A stretch of 32,028 nt of DNA, from NCBI GenBank assembly GCA_022865345.1, contig JALHSU010000085.1, positions 1 to 32,028 on the forward strand, written 5' to 3'. The notes below the pieces were generated by a model. It was not told where the DNA came from. It did not search any database and worked only from the letters and a program-made list of their open reading frames with translations. This DNA is from Candidatus Zixiibacteriota bacterium. GTDB lineage: Bacteria; Zixibacteria; MSB-5A5; RBG-16-43-9. Both the position numbers and the translations under genes were made by a program. Every line of letters starts with the position of its first letter. Within the stretch, counting starts at the first letter, position 1. Below, piece by piece: positions 4,003 through 31,602 of the stretch.

Positions 4003-4055
4003 GTGGAACAGGCATCTTGCCTGTTCCTTTGCTCAGGCAAGGATGCCTGAGCCAC
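4003..4055. repeat. Y-shaped double-hairpin element (GTGG/CCAC ends)
   Basis: Hairpin 1 is GGAACAGGCA/TGCCTGTTCC with a tiny loop (4005-4027). Hairpin 2 is GCTCAGGCA/TGCCTGAGC (4031-4052). The ends GTGG (4003-4006) and CCAC (4052-4055) can pair and close a Y shape. The same plan occurs at 12868, 14267, 20686, 28016 and 31184. Confidence 0.8.
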
Positions 4056-4103: not shown

Positions 4104-4232
4104 GTAGGGGAGACCCTTCCCTTCAACTTCGCTCAGGGATGGTGAGCCCGTCGAACCGTGTAGTCTCCCGCGGGTCGGGAAGGGACCCAGCTAAAGCGGG
4201 ATTTCGCAAAGCTCAACAAGCCCCTCCCCTAC
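4104..4232. repeat. Long nested palindrome with GTAGGGGAG ends
   Basis: GTAGGGGAG at 4104-4112 pairs with CTCCCCTAC at 4224-4232. The 110-base interior contains further inverted segments such as GGGTC/GACCC and a CGGGATTTCGCAAAGCTC module (4197-4214) that recurs at 6695. Confidence 0.7.
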
Positions 4233-6463: not shown

Positions 6464-6805
6464 AATAGCTTGTGGCTGGTAGCAAGGAGCAGGTAGCTAC
6501 AGACTAAAAATCGCGTAGAGGAGGCTTTATGTCTCCGAGCGTAAATGTCAGACAAGTCTGCCGAGCTAAAAACAGGCTAAAGGCAGAAGTCCAAAGTCTT
6601 AAGGCAGGAGGCAAAAGGAATAAAAAAATTAAGAAATCGCATAGGGGCGTCCAATTGGACGCCCTTGACAAAGAGGGTGGAGAGACCCCGCAGTCGGGAT
6701 TTCGCAAAGCTCAACAAGCTCCACCCCTACGCAGTCTGGAGACCAACAGAGAGTGATGAAACAAGAACCATGAACTATGAACCAACAGCTAAAGATGGTG
6801 GGAAG
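6464..6805. other. Spacer before rpe with repeats
   Basis: No convincing gene. It contains short low-complexity runs and a Y-shaped palindromic element at 6639-6732, then a segment GTCTGGAGACCAACAGAGAG (6734-6753) that recurs at 18687-18706. An open frame at 6529-6756 is made of these repeats. Confidence 0.5.
6639..6732. repeat. Y-shaped palindromic element before rpe
   Basis: Outer arms GCATAGGGG (6639-6647) and CCCCTACGC (6724-6732) pair with one mismatch. Inside lie a perfect palindrome GGGCGTCCAA/TTGGACGCCC (6645-6664) and GGGTGGAG/CTCCACCC (6675-6682 with 6719-6726). The loop of the second holds the module CGGGATTTCGCAAAGCTC (6695-6712) shared with 4197. Confidence 0.75.
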
Positions 6806-10083: not shown

Positions 10084-10112
10084 GTTCTTTGAAAAAATTA
10101 AAATAATGGAGT

Positions 10113-10136
10113 GTAAAGCTTTAGCTTTACTTTTTT
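10113..10136 (+). terminator. Terminator-like hairpin after rimM
   Basis: GTAAAGCT/AGCTTTAC (10113-10130) followed by TTTTTT. The stem is AT-rich, so it is probably weak. A similar GAAGGCT/AGCCTTC hairpin lies at 25297-25312. Confidence 0.4.
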
Positions 10137-10232: not shown

Positions 10233-10306
10233 GTCATTCTGAGCGGAGCGAAAAATCTCTGAAGATTTTTCAGTCGTCTCGCCCGTAGGGACTCCTTCAG
10301 AATGAC
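10233..10306. repeat. GTCATTCTGAG-type nested palindrome, copy 2
   Basis: Left arm GTCATTCTGAG (10233-10243); right arm TTCAGAATGAC (10296-10306) with one change. The loop contains AAAAATCT/AGATTTTT (10251-10270) in place of the GAAGAATC hairpin of copy 1. It ends 18 bases before trmD. Confidence 0.8.
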
Positions 10307-11103: not shown

Positions 11104-11173
11104 GTCGGGCAGGGTGCCCGACCTACGAGAGATTGACAATATTTATTCTCGTAGGCGGGGCTCCCAGCCCCGC
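11104..11173. repeat. Three-hairpin composite repeat, copy 1
   Basis: In order: GTCGGGC/GCCCGAC (11104-11122), CTACGAGA/TCTCGTAG (11123-11154) and GCGGGGCT/AGCCCCGC (11155-11173). The same order occurs at 15841-15921. Confidence 0.8.
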
Positions 11174-11261
11174 AAAAAAATCGTGTAATGTAGTCGCTCG
11201 ATCCATCGAGCAAAGAAGATGTCCAGTAAATCGAAAATACAGGAACTAAAGGAGGAGAAAG

Positions 11262-11651: not shown

Positions 11652-11805
11652 ATCAAGATTATGGTAGGTCAGACATTCTTGTCTGACAGGATAGGCAGGA
11701 ATATCTGTTACACTTCTTGTAGTTCCAGCTTGACCTCAAGGTGGGACGATAGACCTATGTTGACTGCAATATGACGATAAAAACAATATGTAAGAAGGGT
11801 ATAGA

Positions 11806-12426
11806 ATGAGTGCGCGTAAACAATTTGAAATTGAACTCAATCACCTTTTCCATAAAAGAACTCACTCTCTTCTCTCCGAGATGAATATAGTAAAACTTGG
11901 AAAACCTCCATCATTAGATCCGCAAAAACTAAATAAAAGTATAGAGAAACTTCAAGATATTGCTACCAAAATTTTAGCAATGGAAATAGCACGGCCAGAA
12001 CTTAGAAAACTCGATGATAAAAAACGAAAGCGTCAATGGCACAACAAAAAAGAAAAAGGATGGCGAGTAGTTGATAGGATGCGCAATTTCTCTGATTGGT
12101 ATGAATCCAATAAATTATCTCAATATTGTATTTATATATTCTGGGATGGACGAAAGTGTATATATCTTGGTAGCACTACGCAAGGTAAGAATAGAATATT
12201 AAATCACTTTGAAAAAAGATGGTTTCAATCAATAAAGCGTATTGATGTTTATTCTATTTCTAACCAGAGTGAGATTTCAAAAATAGAATGTTTAGCACTT
12301 CACTTTTTCACGCCACTAAAAAATAAGAATCGCTCAGCAAGTAAGAAGTGGCGTAAGAAGTGTCCTATATGTAGGAAGCGGGATCTTATATCGTATGAAC
12401 TGAAGAAAATATTTAAGTTCAAGTAA
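11806..12426 (+). CDS. GIY-YIG-like nuclease domain protein
   Basis: A 206-residue basic protein. Residues 108-173 fit a GIY-YIG fold: CIY at 108-110 in place of GIY, YLG at 120-122 in place of YIG, then R130, a candidate metal-binding E161 and N173 in a PLKNKN segment. An isolated CPIC pair (C186, C189) near the C-terminus may bind zinc or be structural. The N-terminal 100 residues are helical, charged and not recognised. Such stand-alone proteins are putative endonucleases, but no experimental role is known to me. The gene looks more AT-rich than its neighbours and splits the conserved rplS-rnhB order, suggesting acquisition. A purine-rich AAGAAGGG precedes the ATG at 11806. Confidence 0.6.
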   Translation: MSARKQFEIELNHLFHKRTHSLLSEMNIVKLGKPPSLDPQKLNKSIEKLQDIATKILAMEIARPELRKLDDKKRKRQWHNKKEKGWRVVDRMRNFSDWYESNKLSQYCIYIFWDGRKCIYLGSTTQGKNRILNHFEKRWFQSIKRIDVYSISNQSEISKIECLALHFFTPLKNKNRSASKKWRKKCPICRKRDLISYELKKIFKFK

Positions 12427-12577: not shown

Positions 12578-12689
12578 CGTAGCGCGAGGCCGTCAAGGGT
12601 CTTGAGACTTTCAGCCTCGCAATGCGACCCTGTCCTACGGTGGCTACGCCAGACGTAGTCTCCGTTATCAGGAAAAGGGTCGCGCTACG
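12578..12689. repeat. Large Y element with CGTAGCGCGA ends, reversed order and loop insertions
   Basis: Outer arms CGTAGCGCGA (12578-12587) and TCGCGCTACG (12680-12689) are perfectly complementary. Inside come a GCGAGGC...GCCTCGC hairpin and then a GCGACCCT...AGGGTCGC hairpin, the reverse order of the element at 31184-31234. Both loops carry extra sequence, including another GGCTACGCC-type palindrome. Confidence 0.8.
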
Positions 12690-12736
12690 AAAACCGAACA
12701 GGCAAGATGCCTGTTCCACCTGTAGGATATTGTAAA

Positions 12737-12867: not shown

Positions 12868-12919
12868 GGTAGGTCAGACATTCTTGTCTGACCGAACAGA
12901 CAGGGATGTCTGTTCTACC
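12868..12919. repeat. Compact Y-shaped double hairpin, best-preserved copy
   Basis: The ends GGTA (12868-12871) and TACC (12916-12919) pair. Hairpin 1 is GGTCAGAC/GTCTGACC (12872-12893). Hairpin 2 is GAACAGAC/GTCTGTTC (12894-12915). The hairpins abut with no linker. Relatives: 11664, 14267, 20686 and 28016. Confidence 0.85.
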
Positions 12920-12941
12920 GCTCATAGACAATCATAAATTT

Positions 12942-12969
12942 GTAGGGGCACGTTGCAACGTGCCCCTAC
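12942..12969. repeat. Perfect 28-base GTAGGGGC palindrome
   Basis: Arms GTAGGGGCACGTTG and CAACGTGCCCCTAC without a loop. The outer GTAGGGGC is shared with 1184 and 25323; the core differs in each. Confidence 0.85.
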
Positions 12970-12980
12970 TGTCTCAATCA

Positions 12981-14240
12981 ATGCTTGAAACTCAGAAAAA
13001 TTCAGGACAGGTTTCTACAATCCAGAGGCAGGGGAGGTTCTGGGAGACTTTTCGGTCGTTGAGGCACCGTAATTACCGGCTTTTCTGGTTCGGGCAGATG
13101 ATCTCCCTGATCGGGACCTGGATGCAGAGTATGGCTCAGGGCTGGATGGTCCTGAGACTTTCCAATTCTCCATTTCTCTTGGGGCTGGTCAGCGCTTTTG
13201 CAGGTCTGCCGGTTTTTTTCCTCTCCCTTCCAGCCGGAGTGCTGGCTGACCGGATCAAGAAAAGAAAGTTCCTCATCTTCACCCAATCAAGCTCAATGGT
13301 GTTAGCCTTTATCCTATCTTTTCTGGCTTTTACCGGACTGGTGAGGGTCTGGCATGTTATGGTCTTGGCTTTATGCCTGGGTCTGGTTAATGCCTTTGAT
13401 GCTCCGACCAGGCAGGCTTTTGTCAAAGAAATGGTTGGGAAAGAGGACCTCTTTAACGCCATCGCTTTAAATTCCTTCATATTCAACAGTGCCAGAATAT
13501 TAGGACCTGCAGTTGCCGGGATTTTAATCAGTCTGGTAGGAGAGGCAGGGTGTTTTTTCTTAAATGGTGTGAGTTTCATAGCAGTGATTGTTGGTCTATC
13601 TCTTATGAGGATGGAAGATATTGTTTTTGAGACAAAGAATAACTCTTTTTTTACCAGCTTCAAAGAAGGGGTGTCCTATGTAACCGGTAATAAAAGGGCA
13701 TTGGCTTTGATCCTTATGGCCTCCACCATGAGCATTTTTGGTTTTTCCTACGCGGTTTTGATGCCGGTTTTTGCTAGGAACATCTTGAAAGCGGGTCCCT
13801 CCGGTCTGGGGTTTCTTATGTCCGCAGTCGGCGCTGGTGCTATAGCTGCTGGATTGGGTTTAGCCTCCAGGAAAACCGAGGAGAAATTAAAATATATGCA
13901 AGCCGGGATAATAGTCTTCTTCCTTTCCCTGATATTTTTCTCTTTTTCCGGGAATTTCTTCTTATCCTTGATTTTCCTGGTAGGAGCCGGCTGGGGGATG
14001 ATATCTTTAATCGCAACCTGCAATACCTTATTGCAGGAGATTGTTCCTGACCAGCTCAGGGGTAGGGTGATGGGGCTTTTTGTAATGATGTTTATGGGAA
14101 CTATGCCTATAGGAAGTTTTATTGCCGGGACCTTGGGACAGGTATTAGGGGTTATCTGGGCAGTCAGAATAGGTGTCGTTTTTTGCGTGGTAATCTCTTT
14201 ATACCTTTTCAAGAGGTTCATCCAGAAGGAGGTTATGTAG
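12981..14240 (+). CDS. MFS transporter, EntS/MFS_3-like
   Basis: A 419-residue polytopic membrane protein with about 12 hydrophobic segments in two halves. The start of TM1 (RNYRLFWFGQMISLIGTWMQ) and the loop DRIKKRK after TM2, the MFS motif A position, match the EntS/DHA3-type exporter family. Other marks are a DAPTRQAF motif in the central part of the first half and LRGRVMG in the second half. The substrate is unknown; relatives export siderophores or drugs. I use the ATG at 12981; the frame continues upstream to 12906 only through two palindromes. Together with the GIY-YIG gene it interrupts the rplS-rnhB neighbourhood. Confidence 0.88.
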   Translation: MLETQKNSGQVSTIQRQGRFWETFRSLRHRNYRLFWFGQMISLIGTWMQSMAQGWMVLRLSNSPFLLGLVSAFAGLPVFFLSLPAGVLADRIKKRKFLIFTQSSSMVLAFILSFLAFTGLVRVWHVMVLALCLGLVNAFDAPTRQAFVKEMVGKEDLFNAIALNSFIFNSARILGPAVAGILISLVGEAGCFFLNGVSFIAVIVGLSLMRMEDIVFETKNNSFFTSFKEGVSYVTGNKRALALILMASTMSIFGFSYAVLMPVFARNILKAGPSGLGFLMSAVGAGAIAAGLGLASRKTEEKLKYMQAGIIVFFLSLIFFSFSGNFFLSLIFLVGAGWGMISLIATCNTLLQEIVPDQLRGRVMGLFVMMFMGTMPIGSFIAGTLGQVLGVIWAVRIGVVFCVVISLYLFKRFIQKEVM

Positions 14241-14266: not shown

Positions 14267-14338
14267 GCGGGTCAGGCATCCCTGTCCTACGGACCCGCTT
14301 CCAGGGCCTGACCAAACAGGCAAGATGCCTGTTCCACC
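14267..14338. repeat. Y-shaped element with an inserted loop
   Basis: Hairpin 1 is GGTCAGGC/GCCTGACC (14270-14277 with 14306-14313); its loop carries extra bases that also pair GCGGGTC (14267-14273) with GACCCGC (14292-14298). Hairpin 2 is AACAGGC/GCCTGTT (14315-14333), then CCACC. Confidence 0.7.
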
Positions 14339-17070: not shown

Positions 17071-17090
17071 AGAGCATGAATTCGTTAAAT

Positions 17091-17178
17091 GTCATTCTGA
17101 GGGAGTCCAAATGGACGACCGAAGAATCTATGGTTTCTGGCGTAAGGCAGATTCTTCGTCCTGCGGACTCAGAATGAC
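17091..17178. repeat. GTCATTCTGAG-type nested palindrome, copy 3
   Basis: Perfect outer arms (17091-17101 and 17168-17178). Inner hairpins are GTCC/GGAC (17105-17116) and GAAGAATCT/AGATTCTTC (from 17121 and ending near 17158). Confidence 0.85.
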
Positions 17179-17248
17179 AAAAAAATCTATCTTAGTTTCG
17201 AGATAGAAGAAAAAGCATCATTACCTATGATGCTCTTCACTCGGTACC

Positions 17249-18729: not shown

Positions 18730-18820
18730 GTCATTGCGAGGAGGTCATCTGACCGACGAAGCAATCCGTCTCGTATGAAGTCGAGGGATTGCTTCGTCCC
18801 CTACGGGGACTCGCAATGAC
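18730..18820. repeat. GTCATTGCGAG-type nested palindrome, copy 1
   Basis: Outer arms GTCATTGCGAG (18730-18740) and CTCGCAATGAC (18810-18820). Inside, CGAAGCAATCC pairs with GGATTGCTTCG. The plan equals the GTCATTCTGAG family with other bases in both stems. The second copy is at 24724. Confidence 0.85.
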
Positions 18821-18830
18821 AATATGAAAA

Positions 18831-20685: not shown

Positions 20686-20778
20686 GTAAGTCAGACATTC
20701 CTGTGGCTACGAGCCAGCCCGCCCTTCGGGCGCCAGGCTTAGCTCTCTGACCGAACAGACAAGGATGTCTGTTCTACC
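20686..20778. repeat. Y-shaped element with a palindrome inserted in hairpin 1
   Basis: GTCAGA (20690-20695) pairs with TCTGAC (20746-20751); hairpin 2 is GAACAGAC/GTCTGTTC (20753-20774). The first loop holds about 35 extra bases with a CGCCC/GGGCG hairpin. The compact form at 12868 lacks this insertion. Confidence 0.75.
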
Positions 20779-20857
20779 GGGCCCGACTTGCGGACAAGGC
20801 GGGTTTACCGATTTCTCTAGGGCGAGGTAACCTCGCCCCTACTGTAAAAAGAAGAAG

Positions 20858-24723: not shown

Positions 24724-24824
24724 GTCATTGCGAGTCCGCCAAAGGCGAGACGAAGCAATCCTTATACTTTGCACAGATTGCTTTGTCGTCTCCCGCAAAA
24801 TGCAGGGAGACTCCTCGCAATGAC
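24724..24824. repeat. GTCATTGCGAG-type nested palindrome, copy 2
   Basis: Perfect outer arms (24724-24734 and 24814-24824). Inner segments include CGAAGCAATC paired with GATTGCTTTG and a GGGAG/CTCCC type pairing. Confidence 0.8.
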
Positions 24825-26415: not shown

Positions 26416-26676
26416 ACGGGCAAACCGTAAGTTATTTTCTTGTCATCCTGAGTCCGAAGGATGAAGGATCTAAAGATTCTTCGTCCCCTTCGGGGACTCA
26501 GAATGACCACAAGTAACACAATAATCCCGCCTTGCCCTCAAGGCGGGATAAATTATCAGGCACTCCGTCATTTCAAAAATATGACAATTCTTATCAAAAA
26601 CAAAGAAAAATCTCTTTTTGATTTATGTCCAGCAACTATGTCCTTACTAAAAAAATGCAAAAAATTAAAAAAATAG
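26416..26676. other. Divergent spacer before the AbrB-arsM operon
   Basis: No gene supported. It holds a TACGG/CCGTA hairpin just upstream of rlmN, a GTCATCCTGAG element (26442-26507) and a CCCGCCTTG/CAAGGCGGG hairpin (26526-26547), then AT-rich sequence up to the operon promoter. Confidence 0.55.
26442..26507. repeat. GTCATTCTGAG-type nested palindrome, copy 4
   Basis: Left arm GTCATCCTGAG (26442-26452) differs by one base from right-arm complement CTCAGAATGAC (26497-26507), leaving a C-A or wobble-like position. Inner GGATC/GATTC and CCCC/GGGG pairings are weaker than in other copies. Confidence 0.75.
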
Positions 26677-28015: not shown

Positions 28016-28066
28016 GTTAGGTCAAACATTCCTGTCTGACCTAACAGGCAGGGATGCGTGTTCCAC
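28016..28066. repeat. Decayed Y-shaped double hairpin
   Basis: Hairpin 1 is GGTCAAAC...GTCTGACC (28020-28041) with mismatches; hairpin 2 is AACAGGC...GCGTGTT; the end is CCAC. Mixes features of the GTAG and GTGG subtypes. Confidence 0.6.
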
Positions 28067-29624: not shown

Positions 29625-29791
29625 CACAAAAGCTCTTGAAAGATGGGATGAAGTTTGGCAGATTCCATGCTCCTTATGGATGTGATCATCCACAAGAGAA
29701 AAGCTGGCGAGGATGATAACATCCTCGCCGAGCGAAAATTTTAGGGCTAAAGATATTGACAAATTAAGTCGAAAATAAAAAGGAGGATGGT
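29625..29791. other. Short spacer with GGATGATAACATCC-type hairpin
   Basis: It holds TGGATG/CATCCA (29677-29692) and GGCGAGGATG, loop ATAA, CATCCTCGCC (29706-29729). Relatives occur at 31289-31312 and 31495-31516. A TTGACA at 29756 has no good -10 partner. Confidence 0.55.
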
Positions 29792-31102: not shown

Positions 31103-31602
31103 ATTCAGAATTATTATGGTTCATAGCCACTTTAGTGGCGTCTTTTGTTGACTTGGTCTTCTCCTGAGAGGAGAGGTAAATTCGTAGCGCGACCCTTTCA
31201 GGGTCGCATTGCGAGGCTGAAAGCCTCGCGCTACATACCTCAGCTCACGGCAAAGCCCTCTCCTAAGAGGAGAGGGAACACTTTCTCTCGGCAAGGATGT
31301 TGTTATCCTCGCCCATTTTTATCTTGTGAATATAAGAAAGGTTGGGGAAACCCATAGCGCGACCCTTTCAGGGTCGCAGAGATTTGTAGAGACGCATCGA
31401 ATGCGTCTCTATTCTTATGACCTAACCCTCTCCTAAGAGGAGAGGGAAATACTATAACTCAAAGAGCTATGCTATCACACCCTTCGCTTTCATCTTGTGG
31501 ATGATAACATCCACAATGAGCATAACTAATTCGTTTTTTGATTTTTTTCGTATTATATATGGTTTTTTTTGAAAAAATTACCAAAAAGTCTCAAAAAAGG
31601 TA
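31103..31602. other. Palindrome-rich spacer before the archaemetzincin gene
   Basis: No gene seen. In order: a GCCACTTTAGTGGC stem (near 31126), a Y element (31184-31234), CCCTCTCCT/AGGAGAGGG hairpins at 31256-31276 and 31426-31446, GGCAAGGAT/ATCCTCGCC (31289-31312), GCGACCCT/AGGGTCGC (31359-31377), AGAGACGCAT/ATGCGTCTCT (31386-31410) and TTGTGGATG/CATCCACAA (31495-31516). Confidence 0.65.
31184..31234. repeat. Perfect Y-shaped double hairpin, GTAGC/GCTAC ends
   Basis: GTAGC (31184-31188) and GCTAC (31230-31234) close the structure. Hairpin 1 is GCGACCCT/AGGGTCGC (31189-31207), linker ATT, hairpin 2 is GCGAGGCT/AGCCTCGC (31211-31229). Hairpin 1 alone also occurs at 1257 and 31359. Confidence 0.85.

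Follow-up and report, generated by a model that had tools for sequence, protein, structure and literature searches.

The double hairpin at positions 12868..12919 of a Zixibacteria contig raises the question of what kind of element is built in this way, and why similar shapes made of other letters recur along the same contig. The window analysed here is the 32,028-nt contig C85 of a Zixibacteria MAG (G000, a 2.86-Mb assembly). The first-pass annotation pointed to eight places that share one plan rather than one sequence, and proposed selection on a DNA cruciform, an RNA junction or a mobile unit that needs this shape. On our analysis they are very probably paired GT[AG]G-tagged REPs (BIME/REPIN). 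Several families of them coexist, and RAYT (TnpA-REP) single-strand transposases encoded elsewhere in the genome or genus very probably spread them.

The view that no named family has exactly this form has to be given up. Two inverted hairpins with GTAG or GTGG heads facing outward are the textbook BIME or REPIN, and REPs are defined by the head GT[AG]G (PMC3733652, PMC6006769, PMC8266576, PMC3116915). RAYTs flanked by inverted GT[AG]G palindrome pairs and genomes with several families are already described, as are 'double foot' REPs, transposase genes that contain a REP and RAYT classes with atypical heads (same sources). GTAG repeats are known from Proteobacteria, Cyanobacteria, Chloroflexi and PVC, a list that does not include Zixibacteria (Di Nocera et al. 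2013, PMC3733652), and we found no mention of Zixibacteria in the papers on REP elements that we searched.

A REP is made up of a 4-nt head and, directly after it, a perfect hairpin; two REPs joined tail to tail form the unit. At all eight annotated places two hairpins lie side by side, and their ends are roughly complementary. The 4-nt ends are exactly complementary at 4003, 12579, 12868 and 31184 and decayed or split at the other four. Three places are intact with exact heads (elements are on the forward strand unless stated): the reference element at 12868..12919, a pair of the CAGRCA family in which a GTAG-GT-type and a GTAG-AA-type REP lie tail to tail between GTAG and CTAC; 4003..4055, also of the CAGRCA family (GTGG-AACAGGCA..TGCCTGTT with a CTCAGGCA-type REP, ending in CCAC); and 31184..31234, a GCGACCC/GCGAGGC-family pair with GTAG/CTAC. 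The pair at 12579..12688, of the GCGAGGC/GCGACCC family, has exact GTAG/CTAC ends and inserts in both loops. The remaining four have a decayed head or an insert, or both. At 6641..6730, a GTAGGGG-type pair with a second-loop insert, the left head is ATAG, and the other three are CAGRCA-family pairs: at 14267..14337 the left half has the decayed head GCGG and a loop insert beside an intact right half, 20686..20777 has a GTAA head and a 42-nt insert in its first loop, and 28016..28066 has decayed heads (GTTAG). Further elements are a GTAGGGG-type pair with extra internal sequence (4104..4232), a GTAG-TCGCTCGAT..ATCGAGC hairpin with a decayed partner (11190..11236), a CAGRCA-family REP (GTAGGTCAGACATTCTTGTCTGAC) with a decayed partner (11664..11713) and, from the genome-wide pattern search, a single CAGRCA-family REP (GTGGAACAGGCATCTTGCCTG) on the reverse strand (12699..12719).

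The same plan is common beyond the window. Copy numbers were obtained from genome-wide pattern searches and the other counts from a 220-kb sample of G000. Strict elements, in which both stems are perfect and 7 bp or longer and the 4-nt ends exactly complementary, occur 23 times in the 220 kb compared with 0.6 in first-order Markov shuffles. Among the tetramers directly 5' of 544 hairpins in this sample, GTAG ranks first of 256, with 37 occurrences where about 1.2 are expected (30-fold). Further copies had been predicted genome-wide, and the CAGRCA subtype alone (GTRG-NN-CAGRCA..TGYCTG) far exceeds the eight places with 108 exact single REPs in G000, whereas the same pattern read backwards has no match in any genome searched. 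The subtype has 59, 92 and 25 copies in two congeners and a confamilial genome (G001-G003), and 0-1 copies in the rest of the order; its presence across the class is patchy, with 18, 20, 9 and 4 copies in a small number of genomes. Another GTAG family, CGTCCTC..GAGGACG, is confined, among the genomes searched, to the three of the genus, which hold 35, 16 and 17 copies. Counts for the GCGACC family were left out because the loop limit of its search pattern excludes the copies in the window itself. GTRG hairpins lie between genes in 94 of 110 cases and within genes in 16, in sequence that is 84% coding. These repeats have the features of GTAG REPs: GT[AG]G directly 5' of a short palindrome, in high copy and mainly extragenic.

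The claim that the bases differ while pairing is kept is borne out by counting directly on 120 unique REPs of the CAGRCA subtype. The two pairs at the base of the stem are formed in 115 and 118 of them, compared with 80.5 and 58.9 if the two sides were independent; for a third variable pair the corresponding figures are 118 and 95.1. Most of this covariation comes from two old subtypes (AA..TT and GT..AC) and several rare ones, so the independent events are fewer than the sequences. A direct case is the 4003 site, where pairing survives two double changes in the syntenic relative L028 (GTGGAACAGG..CCTGTTCC to GTAAAACAGG..CCTGTTTT).

As in BIMEs and REPINs, the CAGRCA subtype forms inverted pairs with outward heads and a single unit, of which we found 27 unique examples. 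Each of the 27 joins two different subtypes (AA with GT in 25), although 45% of randomly joined pairs would be identical (P ~1e-7 on the assumption, not fully valid, that pairs are independent). Of the 27 natural pairs, 26 fold as the proposed Y of two hairpins under DNA parameters; with RNA parameters the shape does not hold for 4003 and 12868, which become one long hairpin. When natural halves were re-paired into identical pairs, one long hairpin resulted in seven of seven tried, as expected of a palindrome, so the use of different subtypes keeps the Y fold. Listings of the GGAGT and GTCATTCTGAG families also suggest a mixed-subtype rule, the paired halves of the latter listed for G000 being always of GAG-GGRA and GAG-YYC type. 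The rule is not universal, as L126, from a distant genome, is an identical pair with a one-hairpin fold.

Comparison with relatives shows how the units behave. Among named relatives, a window protein has its closest counterparts in L026 (JAUYBY010000045.1, 90% protein identity for that protein) and L028 (RBG_16_43_9), both from Zixibacteria and both syntenic with the window; presence and absence were read from aligned intergenic regions that are about 90% identical in L026, L028 and G001. The 4003 pair has an orthologous pair in L028, from which the 4104..4232 pair is absent. At the site of 6641..6730, L026 retains the GTAG head, and the alignment places a GTCATTCTGAG element in L028 instead of the GTAGGGG-type pair. 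The 11190..11236 hairpin is tandemly duplicated in L026, where the pair at 11664..11713 is intact. The halves of the 12868 element are split by a GTAGCGCG element in both L026 and L028. The 42-nt insert at 20686, which begins directly after CT, is missing from both, and after window position 20852 L028, alone of the three, carries a further GTAG..CTAC element. In G001 the 28016 pair is better preserved and an extra element lies near window position 29739; the 31184 element has no match at the orthologous G001 site, near which there is a run of N. In these alignments whole units are plainly gained, lost and nested at orthologous sites, as BIMEs and REPINs are, though the direction is polarised for only some of the changes.

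The annotation also suggested a search for RAYT genes with matching ends, and RAYT genes flanked by the very same elements do exist. Y1 transposases are present in 28 of the 30 genomes of the set, with five Y1_Tnp matches in G000, and nearly all RAYTs carry HUH motifs. L002 and L003 from G000 and L091 from the congener G001 score above NCBI's cut-off for REP-associated tyrosine transposases; L094 and L005 have this family as best match at scores below the cut-off, and L001 is closer to the IS200 family. The nearest solved structure to L002 is TnpA-REP 4er8. A two-hairpin element lies within 600 bp of the gene at 34 of 69 RAYT loci in the strict test, compared with 1.1 in shuffled sequence, and a GTAG/GTGG-headed element at 14 of the 69, compared with 0.0; many more loci show repeats on inspection. 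L002 lies between GTAG-CGTCCTC/CGTTGCC pairs and L091 between CAGRCA-subtype pairs, the subtype of the 12868 element, so that both genes are flanked on both sides by the same REPs, the arrangement of a REPtron. L004 (G000) adjoins CAGRCA-subtype repeats on one side, on a contig (C122) off whose end it runs, and L094 adjoins them as well. The GCGAGGC/GCGACCC family of 12579..12688 flanks L090 and L098, L090 lying between GCGACC/GAGGCT pairs that resemble the window element at 31184, and GTAGTTGCCCGAT pairs resembling the 11190 hairpin, whose family they represent, adjoin L128.

Repeat type follows the RAYT tree: 12 repeat labels mapped on a tree of 74 RAYTs require 11 changes, the reported minimum, compared with 18.5 when shuffled. 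The shared plan without a shared sequence is thus accounted for by several separate REP families that coexist, each with its own RAYT lineage. CAGRCA-subtype repeats adjoin two separate clades, L091 with L116 and L004 with L094, both of which are candidates for the cognate RAYT of this subtype.

Three other explanations were weighed, and each is rejected as the main one. The first is a family of structured RNAs or transcription terminators, in which an RNA junction between genes is kept for regulation. The intergenic bias of the hairpins, their covarying stems and the likelihood of intergenic transcription speak for it, but there is no Rfam match at gathering thresholds, presence/absence, nesting and tandem duplication at orthologous sites are unlike a conserved riboregulator, the GT[AG]G head lies outside the hairpin and is common to families with unrelated stems, and the same elements flank RAYT genes. 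We regard this explanation as very unlikely, and the elements may still have a secondary RNA role. A classical MITE would also be short, non-coding and mobile with inverted ends; such an element derives by deletion from a DDE-type insertion sequence, moves by way of terminal inverted repeats and duplicates its target site. Here, however, the terminal match is just the 4-nt head and the conserved part is the hairpin on each side, the linked transposases are Y1/HUH proteins, and no clear target-site duplication was seen by eye at the few clean insertions (the 20686 insert and the L028 element after 20852). We regard a MITE origin as extremely improbable. Terminator-like hairpins do occur in intergenic regions, but that the elements are chance hairpins or ordinary terminators chosen by eye is hardly credible and is refuted by the element, head and copy counts given above.

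The idea of a mobile unit that needs its shape was right: it fits the presence/absence pattern, the RAYT flanks and the covarying stems. From work on E. coli, Stenotrophomonas and Marinomonas (PMC8266576), we infer that the two hairpins would form when the strand is single, as on the lagging strand, and that a RAYT would bind a hairpin together with its head, the head guiding cleavage at a nearby dinucleotide such as CT. The excised unit would then re-insert, mostly between genes and sometimes within other REPs, and by the same analogy RAYTs would mobilise such units in trans. The mixed pairs would be explained if the enzyme required separate hairpins whose ends differ, or else if long perfect palindromes were purged by the cell. 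A more speculative proposal, which we consider possible but rather doubtful, is that the unit has true left and right ends for which two REP subtypes are obligatory, identical halves snapping into a long hairpin that is unusable or destroyed, and that many coexisting RAYT lineages, some with GGAGT or GTTC, each keep their own head as a guide code coevolving with the enzyme.

The elements resemble the REP/BIME system of E. coli (Y and Z REPs with TnpA-REP) in their GTAG head, hairpin and intergenic position, in the inverted pairing of two different REP subtypes and in the REP-flanked transposase (PMC6006769, PMC8266576). In contrast to E. coli REPs, which have a conserved mismatch bulge, the Zixibacteria stems are perfectly paired, and they belong to another phylum with many more families per genome. 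With the Pseudomonas fluorescens REPIN they share the RAYT-linked inverted doublet, compensatory changes (Bertels and Rainey 2011, PMC3116915) and alternative clover and long-hairpin folds (PMC3116915), which match our results with DNA and RNA parameters; the CAGRCA doublets differ in joining two REP subtypes, with linkers of ~2-26 nt. TnpA-REP subclass 2.4, with its 'double foot' REPs, is similar in having a REP within the transposase gene, as in L004, and an NH-hydrophobic-H motif followed by WQ (PMC6006769). In L004 a GTAGGGGCAGGC..CTAC REP pair lies in frame inside the RAYT gene (1673-1731 of G000:C122).

The form of the elements is therefore mostly ordinary, and what is added is lineage-specific detail and the Zixibacteria host. 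Less expected are the mixed-subtype pairs, the nested elements and the non-GTAG heads (GGAGT, GTTC) beside several RAYTs. The RAYT/REP system is extended to Zixibacteria, where single genomes hold many repeat families, a richness that provides natural enzyme/repeat pairs for learning how RAYTs recognise heads and hairpins, while in sister genomes of about 90% identity gains, losses and nesting can be seen directly. In annotating such genomes, much of the structured sequence between genes should be treated as mobile REP pairs and not as unknown RNAs.

Other repeat families share the window. A family separate from the 12868-type elements, GTCATTCTGAG..CTCAGAATGAC or GTCATTGCGAG, occurs at 485-562, 10234-10306, 17090-17179, 18730-18821, 24724-24824 and 26441-26507. 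The three genomes of the genus carry 95, 108 and 79 of its half-elements, and no other genome searched carries more than 9. The family resembles CGTC-tagged REPs and the Rickettsia RPE (PMC3733652), without an adjacent RAYT: none of the 74 RAYTs has a copy within 600 bp. The genomes of the genus hold 51, 62 and 59 copies of a TGGAGT-headed family (GTAAAGC..GCTTTAC with GTAAACC..GGTTTAC; window 10107-10130), and one genome from a different taxonomic family holds 40. GGAGTG elements flank the RAYTs L003 and L093, so these repeats look like REPs that are linked to RAYTs but have a head other than GTAG. GTTC/GAAC-headed pairs (AACTGAC..GTCAGGTT with CGCCACT..AGTGGC; 365-416 and 31117-31140) number 22 copies in G000 and cluster around the divergent RAYT L005. 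At 11104-11176, GGGCAGGGTGCCCGACCTACGAGA and CTCGTAGGCGGGGCTCCCAGCCCC are of the REP kind found around RAYT L033, but placed head to head.

Two open reading frames lie among these repeats. A 206-aa frame at 11806-12426, in a REP-rich gap, has a GIY-YIG-like motif (CIYIFWDGRKCIYLGSTT); it gave no match in a Pfam search and is missing from the otherwise syntenic L026 and L028. The longest frame of an MFS transporter, 12906-14240, begins within the 12868 element. Because conservation with relatives starts near 12976, the true start of the transporter is probably the ATG near 12980, which would place the 12868 element in its leader.
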